A stretch of 21,306 bases of DNA from a virus. The position numbers and the translations under genes are program-made. This document shows, in pieces, positions 3 to 11,014 of the stretch (its first letter is position 1; the number at the start of each line of letters is the position of its first letter). The stretch covers positions 1-21,306 of IMG/VR virus record IMGVR_UViG_3300029319_000613. One strand, 5' to 3'. Below the pieces are notes generated by a model. It saw only the letters and a list, made by a program, of their open reading frames with translations, ran no database searches and was not told the origin of the DNA.

Positions 3-131
3 GTAGATGCAACTGGTAGTTCTGTTCAAGGAAATGGATCAGAAGCTGATCAGTTAGGTGGTTTGATTGCTTCTCTAGTGCAGGCAACTATAATTGATGA
101 ACAAAGGGCAGGAGGTTTATTAAATAGATAA
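3..131 (+). CDS. C-terminal end of probable tail tape-measure protein (partial)
   Basis: An open frame enters from the left edge and stops with TAA at 129-131. Only 42 residues are visible, ending in IIDEQRAGGLLNR. Its stop overlaps the next ATG by one base (TAATG), so the two genes are translationally coupled. In lambda-type tails the gene directly before gpM is H, the tape measure, and that position is the main reason for the call. The visible residues carry no diagnostic motif. It could also be a small tail gene unrelated to H. Confidence 0.5.
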   Translation, partial: VDATGSSVQGNGSEADQLGGLIASLVQATIIDEQRAGGLLNR

Positions 132-697
132 TGGCAACATTTCCATCAATAACTCCCACTTATGGGATGAGAAAACAAAGCAAACCAAAAGTAAGAGTTA
201 CTACACTTGGTGATGGTTATGAGTTCAGGGCTTTATATGGCCTTCCATTATCTCAAGACCCTAAAGTATATGATCTTACTTTTAACGTGTCTGAAACTAA
301 TGCGGATGTCATAGAAGCATTTTTAAGGAGTAGGGTTGCAGATCAGGCAAGTTTTACATTTACTCCACCAGCAGAAGGTTTTACAAAAACAGGTACATAT
401 TCGCAAAGTGGAACAACTGTAACTATTAGTATCACCTCACATGGCGTTGCTATAGGTGATGTCTTGACCATAGATTATACTTCTGGCAGCGCAACAGATG
501 GAACTTTTGTTGTTGCCTCATCTGCTGATTCAGACACTTTCACTGTAACTGCTGCTAGCTCTGCAACTAATAGTGGAAACGTATCAATTACTCTTTCTGG
601 GGCTGGTCAATATGTTTGTGATTCTTGGACAAAAACTATTCCTTATAACAACAGAGCAATAATAAACTGTTCTTTTAGAGAAGTATTTGAACCATAA
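131..697 (+). CDS. M: minor tail protein, lambda gpM family, with inserted beta domain
   Basis: Tail-tip subunit of the lambda gpM family (Phage_min_tail). The family pattern is split: residues 21-80 contain VRVTTLGDGYEFRA and the DLTF...AFL...ASFTFTPP segment, and residues 161-188 contain YVCDSWTKTIPYNNRAIINC and the terminal FREVFEP. Between them, residues about 89-154 form a Thr/Ser/Val-rich beta domain with a SHG...GD...DYTSGSATDG...DTFTVT pattern. Lambda gpM has no such insert (about 109 residues against 188 here). The same domain occurs in the gpL and gpJ genes downstream. The gene starts on the TAATG overlap with the preceding stop, and its own TAATG joins it to gpL. Confidence 0.85.
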   Translation: MATFPSITPTYGMRKQSKPKVRVTTLGDGYEFRALYGLPLSQDPKVYDLTFNVSETNADVIEAFLRSRVADQASFTFTPPAEGFTKTGTYSQSGTTVTISITSHGVAIGDVLTIDYTSGSATDGTFVVASSADSDTFTVTAASSATNSGNVSITLSGAGQYVCDSWTKTIPYNNRAIINCSFREVFEP

Positions 698-1515
698 TGG
701 CAGTTCCTACAAGCGCACTTCAAGGCTTAACAAATAAATCTATTATTGAGTTATATTCTGTTGAATTAAAACCTGACATTCATTATACAAAATCTGCAAA
801 AACAGCTACTTACAGTCAATCATCTACAACTATCACAATCACACTAAACAGTCATGGTTTTTCTGCTGGTTTGATTCTTAGCCTAGATTTTACTTCTGGA
901 AATGGAATTGATGGGATATATACAGTCCAAACAGTCGCAACAAATACTTTTACTGTTACTGGTACAACGTCACAGTCAACAAGCGGAAATGTTTCTTTTA
1001 ATGTAAATGCAACGATAACAGATCCTACTGTTTATTTATTTCACAGTGGAAATAATATGAAAGATAGTCTAGATATAATATGGCAAGCAAATACTTATTC
1101 AAGAATGCCTGTTAAAGCTGATGGTTTTAAATACTCTGGGAAAGGTAAACTGCCAAGACCAACTTTAACACTTTCAAATTTATTAGGAACAATTACTGCA
1201 ATATTACAACTAACAAATCAAACTACAGCATTGTCTGATCTTGCAGGGGCTAAAGTGACAAGGCGTAGGGCATTAAGCAAAGACCTTGATGAGGTAAATT
1301 TTCCATCTAATGTAAACCCATATAAAAGTGGTTCTGTTGATCCTTCTGCAGAGTTACCAAGAGAAGTTTATTTTGTTGAAAGAAAAACTATTGAAAATAG
1401 AAATATCGTACAATTTGAGCTTGTAAGTTCTTTTGATTTGTTTGGCCTATCCGCACCAAAAAAGCTTGTAACAAAAGATGACTTTGCAGGTGTTGGAACA
1501 TTTGTTAATTTTTAA
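697..1515 (+). CDS. L: minor tail protein, lambda gpL family, with inserted domain and no cysteines
   Basis: Tail-tip protein of the gpL family, identified from its place between gpM and gpK and from family-like stretches: IIELYSVEL near the N-terminus, GKGKLPRPTLTLSN (about 148-161) and ELPREVYFVERK...VQFELVSSFDLFGL (about 219-251). Residues about 38-101 are a second copy of the beta domain seen in gpM (SHG at 52-54, LDFTSG, NTFTVT, SGNVSF). The protein ends soon after the conserved core and has no cysteine, whereas lambda gpL has a cysteine-coordinated iron-sulfur cluster near its C-terminus. The next gene begins after 2 bases. Confidence 0.8.
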   Translation: MAVPTSALQGLTNKSIIELYSVELKPDIHYTKSAKTATYSQSSTTITITLNSHGFSAGLILSLDFTSGNGIDGIYTVQTVATNTFTVTGTTSQSTSGNVSFNVNATITDPTVYLFHSGNNMKDSLDIIWQANTYSRMPVKADGFKYSGKGKLPRPTLTLSNLLGTITAILQLTNQTTALSDLAGAKVTRRRALSKDLDEVNFPSNVNPYKSGSVDPSAELPREVYFVERKTIENRNIVQFELVSSFDLFGLSAPKKLVTKDDFAGVGTFVNF

Positions 1516-1517
1516 AT

Positions 1518-2225
1518 ATGTATTGGAAAGAATCTTTTACTAAATATGCAAAAGAACAAGCACCAGAAGAGGCTTGTGGTTTGTTGGCTATAATTAAAGG
1601 CAAAGAAACTTTTTGGCCTTGTAAAAATTTAGCAGAAGGAAAATTTGAGTTTTTTATTCTTGATCCTGATGATTGGGCAGAATGTGAAGATACTGGAGAA
1701 GTTATTGGAGTAATACATAGTCATCCTGTAGGGGCTGCAACACCATCAGATAATGACAGGGCAGCTTGTGAGCATTTAGGTTTTCCATATTTTATTTACA
1801 GTATTGAGCATGACCATTGGGAATCTTTTGAGCCTACAGGTTGGAAAGCACCGTCATTAATTGGTAGAAAATTTATCTGGGGCAAATATGATTGTTGGTC
1901 TATAGTTACAGATTGGTTTAAAGAAAATAAAAATATTAATATAAAATATTGGAAAAGACCAAAAAAAATAAAAGATTTTATAAATAATCCAGAATTTGAA
2001 TTTGCTTTGCCAAAATTAAACTTTGTAAAACAATCTAATATTAAAGATATAAAAGTTGGAGATGTTTTGCTTTTTCAATCTGTCACAGGCAATTTAAATC
2101 ATGTCGCTGTTTATATAGGTGATAATATGATACTGAATCATAATATAAAAGCATTGAGTTGTAGAGAACTTTTTGATTTAAGATACCAACAGGCACTTAG
2201 AGGAGTTTACAGATATGCAGCTTAA
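1518..2225 (+). CDS. K: tail-tip peptidase, gpK family (JAMM domain + NlpC/P60 domain)
   Basis: Two-domain enzyme of the lambda gpK type. The N-terminal JAB/JAMM metalloprotease domain (about 1-105) has the full signature: Glu18 in EEACGLL, then H67-S-H69, seven residues, S77, two residues, D80. The C-terminal NlpC/P60 cysteine peptidase domain (about 112-235) has Cys126 in YDCWS and His195 in NHVAVYIG, with His208 as a likely third catalytic residue. Such proteins are thought to process a tail protein and/or open peptidoglycan during tail assembly and infection. No separate endolysin is visible in this window, so this is its only recognisable potential cell-wall hydrolase. It overlaps gpI by 11 bases. 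Confidence 0.9.
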   Translation: MYWKESFTKYAKEQAPEEACGLLAIIKGKETFWPCKNLAEGKFEFFILDPDDWAECEDTGEVIGVIHSHPVGAATPSDNDRAACEHLGFPYFIYSIEHDHWESFEPTGWKAPSLIGRKFIWGKYDCWSIVTDWFKENKNINIKYWKRPKKIKDFINNPEFEFALPKLNFVKQSNIKDIKVGDVLLFQSVTGNLNHVAVYIGDNMILNHNIKALSCRELFDLRYQQALRGVYRYAA

Positions 2226-2826
2226 AAAAATAAAAGTTTATGGAAAATTAAGGCAATTTTTAGGAAAGTCATATTTTATGGCTGCTGTTAAATCACCGCA
2301 ACAGGCAATGAGTTTTTTGATTGCAAATTTTGAAGGAATACAAAAACATATGAATGATCAGATTTATAAGATAAAAATGGGCGGTAGGGTGATTACAGAA
2401 GAATATCTTTCAATGTCTGGTCAGGGTGATATACAAATTATTCCTATCGCAACAGGATCAATAATTAAAGGTATAATAGTTGGAATAGCTGCTGTTGCTG
2501 GTGCAGGTGCTGTTGGGGCTGCTGTTGGTGGTCTTTTAGGTTCAGCTTTGGTAGGCACTGTAGTTACTGCAGCATTAACAACTATTGGAACTTCAATGAT
2601 AATTGGAGGTGTTACAGAATTAATATCACCACAACCTCCAGTTCCTAATGTTTCAAGTGTTAGTGATTTTGATCCAGCTATAAGAGGTTCATATTCATTT
2701 AGTGGCATTCAGAACGTTAGTTCAAGTGGTGTTCCAGTTCCTATAATTTATGGTTCTGTATTTAGTGGCTCAATTATAATAAGTTCAGGAACAGATTCTA
2801 CTCAAGTAGTTAAGAGTATAACCTGA
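2215..2826 (+). CDS. I: tail assembly protein, gpI family
   Basis: Tail-tip assembly protein placed between gpK and gpJ as in lambda. The first 80 residues fit a ubiquitin-like fold (KKIKVYGKLRQFLG...AMSFLIANFEG...GDIQIIPIATGS). Residues about 81-136 are a long Gly/Ala/Ile/Val-rich hydrophobic stretch, typical of the family and probably one or two membrane-interacting segments. The C-terminal part contains PVPIIYGSVFSGSIIISSGTD, which resembles the conserved end of gpI proteins. The start overlaps the gpK end by 11 bases, and its TGA overlaps the gpJ start by one base (TGATG). Confidence 0.85.
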   Translation: MQLKKIKVYGKLRQFLGKSYFMAAVKSPQQAMSFLIANFEGIQKHMNDQIYKIKMGGRVITEEYLSMSGQGDIQIIPIATGSIIKGIIVGIAAVAGAGAVGAAVGGLLGSALVGTVVTAALTTIGTSMIIGGVTELISPQPPVPNVSSVSDFDPAIRGSYSFSGIQNVSSSGVPVPIIYGSVFSGSIIISSGTDSTQVVKSIT

Positions 2827-5800
2827 TGCCTAGATTAGTTGATGATCAATTATTTGGAACTGACAGAAAGGTAGTTGATCCTGATCTGATAGATGGTGGC
2901 CTTAGAAGTAAACAGTTTGCAACAGTATTAGATCTGTTAGGTTATGGAGAAATAGATTCGATAATAGATGCGGGTGGTGCTGGAACTAATACTTTCAGAA
3001 AAAATGTTTTTTTTGATGGTACACCATTACAAAACGCAAATGGCGAAGAGAATTTTTCTGATGTAGAAGTTTTTTTTAAAAATGGAGCGTCAAATCAAAC
3101 AGCATTACAGGAAATAAACGCAATAGAAAATACAGTTCCTGTTAGTGTTGAAGTTACAAATGCTTCCTCTGTAACAAGATCAATTACTGATTCTAACGTT
3201 GATAAGGTTAGAGTAACTATACAAATTCCATCTTTACAAGAATTTAAAGACAACGGAGATATTATTGGTGCTGAAGTAAAAATTTCAATAAGAATTACAG
3301 AAAACGATAGCACTATTCATAATCCTGTAGTTGAAGATGTAATAAATGGAAAAGCAACAAGTCCTTTTTTAAAAGATTATGAAATAAAGTTTGAAAAAAC
3401 AATGAGTTTTCCAGTTTCAATAACAGTTATTAGAAATACAGCAGATGGTACAGACACAAGATTACAAAACAAAACAAATTTTTTATCTTTTACAGAAATA
3501 AATACAGATACTAGTGCTTATCAAGGTTTTGCTTATGTTGCTGTAAGATTCAATGCACAGGAATTTCAGAGCTATCCAAAACGTATGTACAGGATTAAAG
3601 GAACTAAGATTCTTGTACCAAATGGAACGACAGTTGATAGCAATAATGGAAGGATTATATATCCTGATGATTATGTCTTTGATGGTACTTTTAAAACAAA
3701 TAAAGAATGGTGTGCAGATCCAGCATGGATTTTGTATGACATTTTGACAACAGATAAAGGTTTTGGTGGTACAGATGGTGTTATTGATGCGGACACATTA
3801 GATGTTTTCAGCTTTTATTCTGCTAGTGCTTATGCAAGTACTTTAATAACTGATCCAATAACAAATACAACTGAACCAAGATTTAGCTGCAATGTAATTC
3901 TTAATCAAAAAAATAATGCCTATTCCTTGATTAATGATTTATGTTCTGTGATGAACGCTATGCCATTTTACAGTAATGGATCATTACAAATATCTCAAGA
4001 TAGACCAATAAATATTTCAACAAATACATCTGATCCTCAATATATTTTTAATAATTCAAATGTAACAGAAGAAGGTTTTACTTATCAGGGTGTAGGACAG
4101 AGAACAAAATATACAGAAGTTGAGGTTGCTTATTTTGATAATGACACACAAAAAATAGATTTGGAACTTGTAACAACTGCTGATATAACAGCCTTGTCAG
4201 ATTCCATTTCTAAATTTGGTAGAACAAGAAAAACATTAAAAGCTTTTGCCTGTACATCAAGAGGTCAGGCAAATAGATTAGGTCGTTGGTTTTTGTACTC
4301 AAATTTAAGAGAATCTGAGGTGGTTTCTTTCACAACAACACTTGAAGCGGGTGTAATTGTAAGACCCTCTACAATTATTGCCATTGCAGATTCTTTAAGA
4401 GCGGGGGTTAGAAGAGGTGGGCGTATAAAATCTGTAACCAATACAACAACTATTGTTGTAGATGATGCAAATAATACTGATCTGACAACAGAAAATTCCG
4501 CTACATTATCAGTTGTTTTATCTGATGGTTCTGTTGAAAGTAGGTCAATAAGCTCAATAAGTGGAACAACAATTGTAGTTTCTTCTGCTTTTTCTTCGGC
4601 ACCTTTAGCAAACAGTGTTTGGGCGATTGAAAATACTTCTGTTGAGTTTCAGATTTATCGTGTTGTTTCCATTGAAGAAAAGAATGATTCTGAATATACA
4701 ATTACAGCAGTAATTCACGACACGAATAAATATGCACAAGTAGAAGATACTACTGTTGCTGCTAATCCAAGAACAATAACTACTTTATTAAATGAAAAAC
4801 CTTCTCCAAGTAATTTAACTGCAACAGAAGAAATTGTAGTTTTGAATGATAGGGCTGTTTCAAAAATATTTATTTCATGGCAACCAGTACAGGGTGTTAA
4901 GGAATATCTTGTTGAATTTCAGTATGAAAATGATAATCCTGAAAGAATAAGAGTCGCTAGGCCAAGTTTTGAGATATTTGAATCAAGGTTAGGTACATAT
5001 AAAATTGCTGTTAAATCTGTTAATACATTAGGTAAATTAAGTAGTGGTACTTCAAATTTTACATTTGTTGCTCAGGGAAAAACAGCTTTACCAGAAGATC
5101 CTTCAGGGTTAACAATAGAACCTGTTTCAGAGGATTTTGTCAGATTACGATTTAACCCTTCAACCTCTGTTGATGTTTTGCATGGTGGCACAATTTCAGT
5201 AAGACATACACCCTCTGTAGATAGGACAACAGCAACATTTCAAAATTCTACGGAAATAATTCCCAAACTTTCTGGGAATATTACAGAAACACTTGTCCCT
5301 TCATTAACGGGAACTTATAGCATCAAGTTTATTGATGATGGAGGACGTAAATCAGAAAATGCTGCAAGAGTAATAGTTACTCAACCAGATCCACAACCTC
5401 ATCAAGTTATTTTAACTGAAAGAGAAGATACAGACTCACCTCCATTCCAAGGGAACAAAGTAAAAACATTTTTTGATTCAGATTTAGATGGTTTATTACT
5501 AGATGGAACATTGCTAATAGATGATGTAACACAAAATATTGATGATTTATCTAATATTGATTTTGCTGGCCCAATTAACTCAAGTGGTTCATATGATTTT
5601 CAAAACATAGTTGATTTAGGAGCAATATTTAATCTTACTTTAAAAAGAAGATTTTTAACTTTTGGGATTTTACCAAATGATCTACTTGATTCAAGAACTG
5701 CAAATATAGATACATGGAGTGAATTTGATGGAGATTTAGCAGAAGATGTCAACGCAAAGATGTTAGTCGCGACAACTAATATAGATCCAGCAACTTCAGT

Positions 5801-6443
5801 TTCAGCTACTTATGAACAATCAGGAGTAACTATTACTATTAGTAAAACCTCTCATGGGTATTCTGTAGGAGATTTTGTTGTAATAGATTTTACGGCTGGT
5901 AGTGCAACAGATGGTAATTATGAAATTCAAACAGTGCCAAATGCAAACTCATTTACAGTAACAGCGAGTGTTAGTGCAACAATTTCAAGCGGTACTTCTT
6001 GCACTTACGGAGCAAACTTTACTCAGTTTAATATTTTTGCAAATGGAGAATATACAGCGAGAGGATATAAATTTAAATGTGAACTAGAATCAAATGATCC
6101 AGCACAAAATATTAAAGTAGAAGAATTAGGTTTTGAGGCAAGTATAAAACGTAGAACAGAAACCGTTAATACTGCTATTGCAAGTCAATGCGCAACAAAT
6201 AGTGCAGCTAAGACAGTAACATTTGGCGATCCATTTTTTGCTGGCACTGGATCTTTGGGAGGATCAACAACGGCATTTTTACCATCAATAGGAATTACTC
6301 TTGAAGGTGCTGTGTCTGGGGATTATTTTAAAATAACATCTGTTTCAGGAACACAATTTATCATAGAAACAAGAGACAAAAATGATGCTTTTAAAGATTT
6401 AAGTTTTAAATATACTGCAATTGGGTTTGGTAAAGGATCATAA
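2826..6443 (+). CDS. J: tail-tip attachment / host-specificity protein, gpJ family
   Basis: Central tail fibre of the tail tip, which in this family contacts the host receptor. At 1205 residues it matches the size of lambda gpJ (1132). The N-terminal hub region contains KQFATVLDLLGYGEI, YRIKGTKILVPNG and NAMPFYSNGSLQISQDRP, typical of the tip-attachment domain. Two fibronectin type III-like domains follow at about 656-745 and 752-850. Residues about 995-1060 are a third copy of the inserted beta domain found in gpM and gpL (SHGYSVGD...DFTAGSATDG...SFTVT). The last 90 residues (GDPFFAG...ITLEGAVSGDYFKIT...YTAIGFGKGS) look like the terminal domain common in such fibres. Receptor specificity probably lies in the C-terminal third. 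Confidence 0.88.
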   Translation: MPRLVDDQLFGTDRKVVDPDLIDGGLRSKQFATVLDLLGYGEIDSIIDAGGAGTNTFRKNVFFDGTPLQNANGEENFSDVEVFFKNGASNQTALQEINAIENTVPVSVEVTNASSVTRSITDSNVDKVRVTIQIPSLQEFKDNGDIIGAEVKISIRITENDSTIHNPVVEDVINGKATSPFLKDYEIKFEKTMSFPVSITVIRNTADGTDTRLQNKTNFLSFTEINTDTSAYQGFAYVAVRFNAQEFQSYPKRMYRIKGTKILVPNGTTVDSNNGRIIYPDDYVFDGTFKTNKEWCADPAWILYDILTTDKGFGGTDGVIDADTLDVFSFYSASAYASTLITDPITNTTEPRFSCNVILNQKNNAYSLINDLCSVMNAMPFYSNGSLQISQDRPINISTNTSDPQYIFNNSNVTEEGFTYQGVGQRTKYTEVEVAYFDNDTQKIDLELVTTADITALSDSISKFGRTRKTLKAFACTSRGQANRLGRWFLYSNLRESEVVSFTTTLEAGVIVRPSTIIAIADSLRAGVRRGGRIKSVTNTTTIVVDDANNTDLTTENSATLSVVLSDGSVESRSISSISGTTIVVSSAFSSAPLANSVWAIENTSVEFQIYRVVSIEEKNDSEYTITAVIHDTNKYAQVEDTTVAANPRTITTLLNEKPSPSNLTATEEIVVLNDRAVSKIFISWQPVQGVKEYLVEFQYENDNPERIRVARPSFEIFESRLGTYKIAVKSVNTLGKLSSGTSNFTFVAQGKTALPEDPSGLTIEPVSEDFVRLRFNPSTSVDVLHGGTISVRHTPSVDRTTATFQNSTEIIPKLSGNITETLVPSLTGTYSIKFIDDGGRKSENAARVIVTQPDPQPHQVILTEREDTDSPPFQGNKVKTFFDSDLDGLLLDGTLLIDDVTQNIDDLSNIDFAGPINSSGSYDFQNIVDLGAIFNLTLKRRFLTFGILPNDLLDSRTANIDTWSEFDGDLAEDVNAKMLVATTNIDPATSVSATYEQSGVTITISKTSHGYSVGDFVVIDFTAGSATDGNYEIQTVPNANSFTVTASVSATISSGTSCTYGANFTQFNIFANGEYTARGYKFKCELESNDPAQNIKVEELGFEASIKRRTETVNTAIASQCATNSAAKTVTFGDPFFAGTGSLGGSTTAFLPSIGITLEGAVSGDYFKITSVSGTQFIIETRDKNDAFKDLSFKYTAIGFGKGS

Positions 6444-6500: not shown

Positions 6501-7709
6501 ATGGCAACACATGATTATGTATTAGATAATGCCTCTGGTGCGGCATTTAGAACAGACTTAAATAATGCGTTAGCTGCAATCGTAAGTAATAACTCAAACA
6601 GTTCTAGTCCAGCTACTACATACGCTTATCAATGGTGGGCAGATACCACATCTGGTATTTTGAAACTTAGAAACTCTAGCAATAATGCATGGATTGATAT
6701 GCTCAATCTTGATGGTACTTTTGTTTTTGATTTAGAAGATGGAAGTGCTTCTGCACCCTCACTAAGGTTTGCAGACGATCTTGATACTGGGATATTTAGT
6801 GCTGCTGCTAATACTTTTAATGTGGCAACTTCTGGTACTGAAAGGATGGAGTTGTCAGCCTCTTCAACAATATTTAATGAAGATGGTCTAGATGTAGATT
6901 TTAGAATTGAAGGTGATTCTGAGGCAAATTTATTTTATCTTGATGCTGGTAATGACCGCATTGGTATTGGTCTTTCGACTCCACAAGTTTTATTACATTT
7001 AAATGGCACAAATGCAAGAATGCAGTTTACTGATAGCTCAACAGGCAGTGCTTCAGGTGATGGAGTTTTAGTAGGTTTAAATGGTGATGATGACTTTTTT
7101 ATTAATAATAGAGAATCTAGTAAACACATTTTATTTTTTACTGAAGGCGTTGAGCGTGTAAGAGTTTCGAATGGTGGGGGAGTTTTATTTCATCAATCAA
7201 CCAGTGGCACCCCCGGCTTTAGTAATACGACAACTGGTGCTGCTATAGAAAAAGTTTCTGGTTCGTGTTTATTTGTTTCGAGAGATGATCTTTTTTGTTG
7301 TCATTTGAATAGAAATAGCACAGGGACAATTCTACAATTTGCTAAATCTGGTAGTCAGGTAGGTTCAGTAACTACAGACGGCTCTGATGTTGCATATAAT
7401 ACTGGATCTTCTGACAGATCATTGAAAAAGAATTTTGAAACTTGGAATGAAAATACTTTAAATTTATTTAAAAATTTAAAACCCCAAAAATTTAATTTTA
7501 TATCTGAAGACGATACCGACACCAAACATAAAGGTTACATAGCACAAGATTTAGTTGATAGTTTTCCAGAAGCATATCCAAAAGATAATAGTGATAAATA
7601 TATGTTTAATCCTTCTGGTATGGTTGTTTATTTAATGAAAGCGTTACAAGAAGAAATTGTTAAAAGAGAAGCACTAGAAACAAGAATTGCAGCTTTGGAA
7701 GCTGCTTAG
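6501..7709 (+). CDS. tail fibre with C-terminal peptidase S74 intramolecular chaperone domain
   Basis: Probable receptor-binding or side tail fibre, 402 residues. The N-terminal half is Ser/Thr/Asn-rich with repeated beta motifs (SLRFADDLDTGIF, FYLDAGNDRIGIG, VGLNGDDDFFINN) typical of trimeric fibre shafts. From about residue 300 it has a peptidase S74 domain: SSDRSLKKN (Ser and Lys of the usual autocleavage pair), KPQKFNF, KGYIAQDLVDSFPEAY, and a terminal coiled coil (LMKALQEEIVKREALETRIAALEAA). In this family the chaperone trimerises the fibre and may cut itself off. Cleavage cannot be shown from sequence alone. The gene is separated from gpJ by an AT-rich gap and may have its own promoter. 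Confidence 0.88.
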   Translation: MATHDYVLDNASGAAFRTDLNNALAAIVSNNSNSSSPATTYAYQWWADTTSGILKLRNSSNNAWIDMLNLDGTFVFDLEDGSASAPSLRFADDLDTGIFSAAANTFNVATSGTERMELSASSTIFNEDGLDVDFRIEGDSEANLFYLDAGNDRIGIGLSTPQVLLHLNGTNARMQFTDSSTGSASGDGVLVGLNGDDDFFINNRESSKHILFFTEGVERVRVSNGGGVLFHQSTSGTPGFSNTTTGAAIEKVSGSCLFVSRDDLFCCHLNRNSTGTILQFAKSGSQVGSVTTDGSDVAYNTGSSDRSLKKNFETWNENTLNLFKNLKPQKFNFISEDDTDTKHKGYIAQDLVDSFPEAYPKDNSDKYMFNPSGMVVYLMKALQEEIVKREALETRIAALEAA

Positions 7710-9398: not shown

Positions 9399-9460
9399 CC
9401 CTATTCGCCACGGCAATGGATAGGGCGTCTAGGTAGGCAAGTCTAACCGTGCTTGTCTAC
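9399..9460. terminator. two adjacent hairpins between convergent genes, probable bidirectional terminator or structured RNA
   Basis: Hairpin 1 pairs 9399-9406 (CCCTATTC) with 9418-9425 (GGATAGGG), 8 bp with one T-G pair and an 11-base loop. Hairpin 2 pairs 9433-9441 (GTAGGCAAG) with 9452-9460 (CTTGTCTAC), 9 bp with one G-T pair and a 10-base loop. The loops contain CACGG (9409-9413) and CCGTG (9447-9451), which are exact complements. Neither stem is followed by a strong T run. The position, at the end of the plus-strand block and overlapping the stop of the minus-strand block, favours transcription termination. Confidence 0.55.
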
Positions 9461-10083
9461 TGCTTTAATTTATGAGTATGTGGTAATACTTGATTAGGCA
9501 CAGTTGTTAAAACAACATTTCTACAACTAACAGCATCTTCCCCTACATACTTAACACCAAGTTTTAGTTGCTCGGCACATATTTTAAGACGATTAAGATT
9601 AACCTCTAATTTTTTAGCATCGAGCATAAATTCCTGATATTTTCTATAAGTCTGGGCTGCTTGTAAACATTCCTTGTTAAAACCTCCACCTCCAAGTGGT
9701 ATTTGAAAACTAGCAGTGATTCCATAATTTAAGTTATATACTGTTTGATCTAATCTTTCCTGTTCTGCAACATATAAAATGTCCCCAGGATTAAGCAACT
9801 GGCCTGTATCACTGTCTTTTGCAGTGTCATAAATATTGGTTCGAGAGATTGTACTTCTTGGAAGGGAAAAATTTTCTCCTTTAGTGACAAAGGGAGTAAT
9901 AGCCAAAGTGGGAAGTTGACATTGTATTCCATTTGAAAATCTATGAGTAGGAAAGTTTCCATTTATAGTCTGATATCCATTGTTAATAACCGTTCCAGAA
10001 CTGGATGCCGAAGGAGAACTTATTGTATTACTAGCATAAAGAGGACTTGTAAACAGTAATCCTATTGGGAAAAGATACTTAAG
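9457..10083 (-). CDS. exported protein of cyanophage accessory cassette; start codon unclear
   Basis: An open frame whose codon 51 (CTT, 10083-10081) begins a clear secretory signal, KYLFPIGLLFTSPLYA, with predicted cleavage after the Ala at residue 67 of the long frame. The mature part is about 190 residues and contains NNGYQTINGNFPTHRFSNGI, LNPGDILYVAEQERLDQT, a Gly run (PLGGGGFNKECLQAAQ) and a helical segment (KKLEVNLNRLKICAEQLK); four cysteines are spread along it. No ATG, GTG or TTG lies near the signal. The nearest in-frame ATG (10233) is deep inside the preceding gene and gives a low-quality N-terminus. I mark the frame from the CTT, where similar proteins would have ATG. Function unknown, possibly virion or periplasmic. 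Confidence 0.6.
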   Translation of the reverse strand, partial: LKYLFPIGLLFTSPLYASNTISSPSASSSGTVINNGYQTINGNFPTHRFSNGIQCQLPTLAITPFVTKGENFSLPRSTISRTNIYDTAKDSDTGQLLNPGDILYVAEQERLDQTVYNLNYGITASFQIPLGGGGFNKECLQAAQTYRKYQEFMLDAKKLEVNLNRLKICAEQLKLGVKYVGEDAVSCRNVVLTTVPNQVLPHTHKLKQ

Positions 10084-10490
10084 GAATTTGTTTGGGTTTC
10101 TATAGTTTGAGTTCGATTTATTACTGATACTGCATCTAATCCTGGAGCTAGAAAATTTTCTACTAAAGAAAAGTCCGAGCCTTGCGTTACTATTGTCCAC
10201 TGAGGTTTGCTTGTTAATTCTGGTGTTACCCATTGAAAATTAACTGCTCCATTTCCTGTATTCTGACTTGTTGTATATGTCGCATCAGGTGAGATATAAG
10301 AGTCTGTTTTAATATTATGGCCTTGTACTGTATAGCTGAAACCTGTTCTATAATTTTCAGTAACAATCGTTTCTTGAATTGTAGATACGCTACGACTGGA
10401 TGACTCCATTTGGCCTGTTGTAAATCTTGGTGTGATACTGCCTGCATATGCACTAGGCACTGTAAGAAACAGGCATAGAAACCACTTCAT
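10062..10490 (-). CDS. exported Ser/Thr-rich protein of cyanophage accessory cassette
   Basis: A 142-residue protein with signal peptide MKWFLCLFLTVPSAYA (cleavage likely after residue 16). The mature chain is beta-rich: SSSRSVSTIQETIVTENYRTGFSYTV, a middle ending in GAVNFQWVTPELTSKPQW, and a C-terminus VINRTQTIETQTNSLSIFSQ. I recall families with the same T-I-x-E-T-I-V-T-x-x-Y-x-x-G-x-x-Y and terminal S-x-F-S-Q features in marine cyanophages, sometimes labelled structural. Its ATG overlaps the preceding stop by one base (TAATG). The gene downstream overlaps its last 22 bases in another frame. Confidence 0.7.
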   Translation of the reverse strand: MKWFLCLFLTVPSAYAGSITPRFTTGQMESSSRSVSTIQETIVTENYRTGFSYTVQGHNIKTDSYISPDATYTTSQNTGNGAVNFQWVTPELTSKPQWTIVTQGSDFSLVENFLAPGLDAVSVINRTQTIETQTNSLSIFSQ

Positions 10491-11014
10491 TAATCAAGCC
10501 CAAGAGTAATAGTAGATTGAAGTGTAGCAGTTGTACCAGCACCCATATCAGATAGATTAACTGTCAATGCTTGTCCACTATCCAATGTAATAGCTACAGA
10601 TCCAACATCTCCTCCAGAGACTACAGTGTTTTTACCAAGTAAAGGTAATGAAGGAACAACACCATTAGTAACCGTGGCAGACAGTAAGCTTGGTACTGAA
10701 TCCGCTTGAATGTAGCTTTCCGATGCAGAAAAAGCATCGCCTTCATTGACAACATTAAAGCTAGTATCGTAGTCAACAGTAGGAACTCCATTAGTGATAC
10801 CAGCATCAGCTAAATCAAGAGAACCAATTTGTCCTGCAACTGTATTTGCTTTTGGTGTAACGTTAGTACCAGCTACAGAAATACTGGCTGAAATCCTCTC
10901 ACTTGTTGCTGAAGCTGCTACGGTGCTTACTGAAGCTACTGATTGTATAGAATGAGTTATGTCAGCGTAGGCTGGGCTTGAAATCAAAAACAAGAATGGG
11001 ATTAGTTTTTTCAT
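10490..11014 (-). CDS. exported Ser/Val-rich beta protein of cyanophage accessory cassette
   Basis: A 174-residue protein with signal peptide MKKLIPFLFLISSPAYA (cleavage likely between Ala17 and Asp18). The mature part is low in charge and rich in Ser, Thr, Val, Ala and Gly (SIQSVASVSTVAASATSERI, GDAFSASESYIQADSVPSL), ending in GAGTTATLQSTITLGLD. This suggests a beta-sheet surface or virion protein and matches my memory of a family found beside the 142-residue type in cyanophages. The start overlaps the upstream membrane-protein stop by 4 bases; the stop overlaps the next start (TAATG). No enzymatic motif is visible. Confidence 0.7.
   Translation of the reverse strand: MKKLIPFLFLISSPAYADITHSIQSVASVSTVAASATSERISASISVAGTNVTPKANTVAGQIGSLDLADAGITNGVPTVDYDTSFNVVNEGDAFSASESYIQADSVPSLLSATVTNGVVPSLPLLGKNTVVSGGDVGSVAITLDSGQALTVNLSDMGAGTTATLQSTITLGLD

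Follow-up and report, generated by a model that had tools for sequence, protein, structure and literature searches.

An endosialidase-like beta-barrel module inserted in gpM, gpL and gpJ of the lambda-type tail tip of an uncultured marine virus

In phage lambda, gpM is present as a hexamer and gpL and gpJ as trimers (PMC10721106). In RcGTA, sugar-binding sites have been proposed in the corresponding Dit, hub and megatron proteins, in a 6+3+3 arrangement, and the particle is proposed to use these sites for passing through the capsule (PMC7296036). The tail tip of roseophage R4C is similarly equipped (PMC10276861), and pb9 of phage T5 is described as having an OB-fold in a position at which lambda gpM is not extended (PMC7291167). 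Among phage endosialidases, that of K1F has three polysialic-acid sites; its beta-barrel is one of them and also a hotspot of host discrimination, with contacts to sialic acid reported for residues S460 and S468 (PMC12632334).

The DNA analysed here (the window) is the whole of the 21,306-base IMG/VR record IMGVR_UViG_3300029319_000613, from an uncultured marine virus of bacteria. Its first genes encode a lambda-type tail tip in the lambda order M-L-K-I-J, and the family profiles for such genes (PF05939, PF05100, PF24801 and phrog_31) are matched. All five genes lie on the plus strand, and three of them carry a barrel insert. The distal tail (Dit) protein gpM (131..697, 188 aa, with insert) matches PF05939 (Phage_min_tail, E=2.8e-14) and, by profile, the lambda gpM chain 8iyk_M (E=2.8e-12), and the hub protein (HDI) gpL (697..1515, 272 aa, with insert) matches PF05100 (E=6.4e-28) and TIGR01600. 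These are followed by a gpK-like fusion of JAB and NlpC/P60 domains (1518..2225; PF14464, PF00877) and the plug protein gpI (2215..2826; phrog_32, E=5e-33), both without a barrel in the window, and by the central tail fibre gpJ (2826..6443, 1205 aa; PF24801, PF13550 and, with E=7.5e-179, phrog_31), which has its insert near the C-terminus. The gene after gpJ, adjoining it, encodes a side tail fibre with an S74 chaperone (6501-7709). Farther along, consecutive ORFs occupy the minus strand at 9457-11014, and two of them begin with signal-peptide-like stretches, MKKLIPFLFLISSPAYA and MKWFLCLFLTVPSAYA. In the lambda literature a C-terminal four-Cys [4Fe-4S] domain is described as universal among gpL homologs; contrary to this, gpL of the window's marine clade is without it. 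By cysteine count the domain is absent from gpL of the window, and four or more Cys within the last 110 residues were found in 1 of 253 gpL-type ORFs (that of locus L268).

A first-pass annotation, made by reading the sequence alone, had claimed that segments of gpM, gpL and gpJ share a common framework and represent one beta-rich domain, and both claims are upheld. At the places it named we find homologous copies of about 67 residues each, all on the plus strand: residues 87-154 of gpM (389..592), 36-102 of gpL (802..1002) and 993-1060 of gpJ (5802..6005). They are pairwise roughly 50% identical, 23 of the 70 columns of their alignment (A1) are invariant, and no fourth copy exists anywhere in the 21.3-kb record. 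Their BLOSUM62 local scores (M-L 180, M-J 184, L-J 155) correspond to z = 18-20 against shuffled sequences, the comparison that the annotation had proposed as a test; 2000 shuffles gave means of 37-43, SDs of 6.5-7.1 and a maximum of 77, as against 155-184 for the copies. Chance similarity of Ser/Thr-rich sequence is ruled out by these shuffles together with the profile matches and structure models described below. A nucleotide comparison, likewise proposed beforehand, gave identities of only ~60-64% among the window copies, so the three are not recent duplicates. The statement that lambda gpM and gpL lack the domain was also accurate and extends to lambda gpJ, the best lambda match being a chance minus-strand ORF (E=0.08). 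The feature is real and well defined.

Each copy is a clean insertion, and relatives with empty sites exist for M, L and J. Proteins with the insert measure ~189 aa (gpM), ~272 aa (gpL) and ~1200 aa (gpJ), as compared to 114-130, ~192 and ~1120 aa in empty-site relatives, which for J include those of L233 and L234. When aligned with these relatives, the gpM insert falls between TPP..E and the YVCDSW strand, in keeping with the earlier claim that the gpM fold is cleanly interrupted there; the gpL insert occupies the loop that follows IIELYSVEL, the first strand of the framework, and the gpJ insert lies between ..TTxxDP and FTQFNxFxNGxYxARGFKF. A decorating domain within a loop of the core, the arrangement that marks evolved Dit and Tal proteins, is thus seen in the empty-site alignments of all three, and T5-type pb9 and lambda gpM are Foldseek matches of the gpM model over its whole length. 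Occupancy was surveyed with gpK as the anchor, and gpK itself carries a barrel at 0 of 80 anchored loci; in some relatives, one is found at the C-terminal end of gpI. Other insertions were encountered as well. Six gpJ proteins (L021, L126, L125, L214, L259 and L261) have additional copies of the barrel at about residues 145 and 290. A different insert, of ~140 residues and in another loop, is found in gpL of L234 (3567-4559), L239, L243 and L249; it appears cupredoxin-like by eye (YYCxxHGxxMG) and in L234 has no Pfam match. The gpL of L263 (2927-4558) has a large insert with a sub-threshold match to B_lectin (D-mannose lectin, E=4.7e-4).

Sequence profiles and two structure models identify the module as the beta-barrel of phage endosialidases, PF12195 (End_beta_barrel). 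The PF12195 matches in the window (6.5e-6 for gpM, 0.0016 for gpL and 7.9e-4 for gpJ) each fall under the curated cut-off of 35 bits; the profile also matches 33 of 35 gpM relatives, the best with 1.8e-10, and a homologous copy in the major capsid protein of cyanophage P-SSP2 passes the cut-off with 36.4 bits. A profile of the three window copies, which the annotation had suggested searching with, matches the endosialidases of phi92 (4hiz, 1.6e-5) and K1F (4.5e-4) in the PDB. AlphaFold2 models were made separately for gpM (pLDDT 88.7, above 90 in the barrel) and for the C-terminal part of gpJ (84.2, and 91-97 over the barrel); rather than showing unrelated folds, both match endosialidases (4hiz, 1v0e, 3gvj) in Foldseek, and for gpJ these are the top matches. 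The annotation had offered an E1-FCCH-like label, which stands as a resemblance in fold, since chains of the E1 enzymes Uba1 and Uba6 appear lower in both Foldseek lists (best E=0.02-0.06), and is ruled out by sequence, with no Pfam match to E1-FCCH at E<=1 in the window; a literature search found no report of FCCH in phage structural proteins.

The sialic-acid contact residues of K1F are not conserved in the module: S460 and S468 align with conserved Asp columns, in a mapping taken from one profile alignment, for which the numbering offset was deduced from the fact that both residues are Ser. Such contacts are features of a ligand site that the Pfam definition of PF12195 does not require. The module is acidic, with a mean net charge of -2.7 to -4.9, and has no Trp. 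The change of the contact serines to Asp, the charge and the lack of Trp together make sialic acid an unlikely ligand, and we conclude from the residues that the ligand is probably another one.

The module is not confined to tail tips. It is present in gpM and gpJ of Prochlorococcus siphoviruses, and in myovirus tail fibres, baseplate wedge proteins, T7-like major capsid proteins, a phrog_3287 virion protein and depolymerase-like tailspikes. L107, a close relative with inserts in M, L and J, encodes downstream of gpJ a pectate-lyase-like tailspike with one more copy; this is the same kind of setting as in the endosialidases. More distant copies were sought with single copies as queries, since their alignment (A7) was too variable. 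Larger records (13.7-51 kb) held copies in 12 of 13 cases, those listed being in open frames of tip-protein size, and a scan of genome contigs yielded only four loci: two are phage-like pieces of alphaproteobacterial assemblies, and the other two encode verrucomicrobial repeat proteins. The latter (L278:2-5431 and L279:2-5482) are ~1800 aa long, with 7-8 weak module matches each.

Apart from a few exceptions, tip occupancy among the relatives follows an almost nested series: none; J; M+J; M+L+J; M+L+I+J. A tree built by a quick method from 114 concatenated tip frameworks requires at least 1 change for L, 4 for M, 6 for I and 8 for J; gain and loss are indistinguishable in this count, MED4-184 sits on a long branch, and the window served as the seed for sampling. 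One clade, of 59 rows, has the L insert throughout. Among 222 copies compared, 201 lie in M, L or J, and each of these has its nearest neighbour in the same protein (80/80 for M, 59/59 for L, 62/62 for J). Identities between proteins within the same genome and between different genomes are 0.459 and 0.458 for L-M, 0.476 and 0.462 for J-M, and 0.481 and 0.489 for J-L; since same-genome copies are no closer than those of different genomes, the copies have been neither recently duplicated nor matched in sequence. Together with the low nucleotide identity, this equality rules out gene conversion and any recent duplication within the genome; a coordinated single acquisition is ruled out by changes that fall at different nodes and in different combinations. 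The proximity of same-protein copies and the lack of same-genome closeness thus point to three old insertions, separately acquired and retained at fixed sites. Two earlier proposals do not survive: that the three insertions were coordinated, the more so as gpI too carries one in some relatives, and that one genome's copies form a matched set, of which the identities give no sign.

Drawing on analogy with better-characterized systems, we favour, with a probability of roughly 0.55, the reading that the barrels are independently acquired, outward-facing domains for low-affinity, multivalent adhesion to surface or capsular polysaccharide. The lambda stoichiometry (gpM 6, gpL 3, gpJ 3) predicts ~12 barrels per tip (6+3+3), which would be displayed pointing outward like the distal-tail insertion domains of T5 pb9, RcGTA and R4C. 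The barrels would weakly grip the surface or capsular polysaccharide of the host, and this grip would attach the virion reversibly, allowing it to reach the receptor bound by the end of gpJ and by the side fibres. We infer glycan binding from the analogy with K1F, RcGTA and R4C, which renders plausible the role that the annotation had assigned to a decoration or glycan-binding ring; its further supposition, that the copies of the ring are matched, is not borne out. The tailspike copy in L107 and the copies in 12 of the 13 larger records count in favour of adhesion. Against it count the acidic, Trp-free character of the module, unlike many sugar-binding domains, and its presence in major capsid and baseplate wedge proteins, which would suit generic decoration. 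A bolder version, which we hold to be quite unlikely, envisages a near-homogeneous, 12- to 15-valent adhesion crown made from one module family in Dit, hub, central fibre and sometimes plug, in which the Asp pair replacing the sialic-acid serines (D115 and D123 in gpM) would form a new, perhaps Ca2+-dependent, lectin-type site.

The same features that weigh against adhesion, i.e., the occurrence in major capsid and other structural proteins, the composition and the unconserved contacts, could be expected if the barrels bound no ligand and instead braced neighbouring subunits or shielded and spaced the tip for stability or solubility, and the R4C Dit insertion domain does also mediate inter-subunit contacts. 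We nevertheless regard this as unlikely, because the tip proteins of empty-site relatives are otherwise similar, so that the barrels are dispensable for assembly, and because copies in one genome bear no sign of mutual matching. The spread over unrelated virion proteins and the fact that M, I and J have changed state repeatedly would also be explained by a promiscuous, nearly neutral domain that recombines into tolerant surface loops, like phage Ig-like domains; long retention at fixed sites, with the L insert kept throughout its clade, and the continued conservation of the HG turn and the Asp positions make this distinctly improbable. The position of the S74-chaperone fibre gene directly after gpJ raises the further idea that the barrels are docking sites for side tail fibres. 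The N-terminal domain of the fibre adjoins gpJ in 9 of 9 loci that lack all three inserts as well as in 64 of 64 that have them; docking is weakened as a reason for the inserts by this presence regardless of them, and we consider it very improbable.

Adhesion to polysaccharide, if correct, would give a probable function, along with the identified fold, to an insert of several hundred marine viral contigs, and the decorated Dit-hub-Tal architecture of GTAs and Gram-positive phages is seen to occur in lambda-type tips too. Natural relatives exist at every step of occupancy, which allows the decorations to be compared one by one for their effect, and for ligand screening the module provides a variant of PF12195 in which the known sialic-acid contacts are missing.

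Compared with the endosialidases (K1F 1v0e/3gvj, phi92 4hiz), the module belongs to the same sequence family and fold and keeps the HG turn and GD motif, whereas the endosialidases carry the barrel in a catalytic, capsule-degrading tailspike and the window virus carries it in tail-tip proteins, with Asp in place of the two contact serines of K1F. The nearest cultured systems are the cyanophages MED4-184, MED4-117 and P-HS2, whose J proteins show 41-42% identity over 758 aa. As in the window virus, gpM and gpJ of MED4-184 contain barrels, but its gpL has no insert; the record of this Prochlorococcus phage (NC_020847.1) encodes the J homologue at 34.7-38.3 kb, where the gpJ region is unannotated. 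T5 pb9 likewise consists of a Dit core and an extra small barrel domain, which is an OB-fold rather than an endosialidase barrel, and we found no report that the T5 hub has the same module. The evolved Dit and Tal proteins of Gram-positive siphophages have loop-inserted decorating modules, some shown to bind the host; these are BppA-type CBMs on galectin-type Dits, unlike those of the window. In R4C, a marine siphophage, the Dit insertion domain is barrel-like and protrudes outward, and several accessories are proposed to bind carbohydrate, but the Dit insertion resembles a T7 fibre domain and the megatron accessory is CBM11-like. RcGTA has homologous tip proteins, and the sugar-binding domains proposed for them are arranged 6+3+3, as predicted for the window; these domains differ in fold (OB-like in Dit, resembling LKA1 gp49 in the hub), in contrast to the one module family of M, L and J. 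Given the precedents of RcGTA, R4C and the evolved Dit and Tal proteins, all with unrelated folds, decoration of Dit, hub and Tal in one tip is not in itself unusual, although three coordinated insertions in one tip had looked so to the annotation; the principle is already known with other folds, and what looks unusual is the use of one module family in all slots of one tip.
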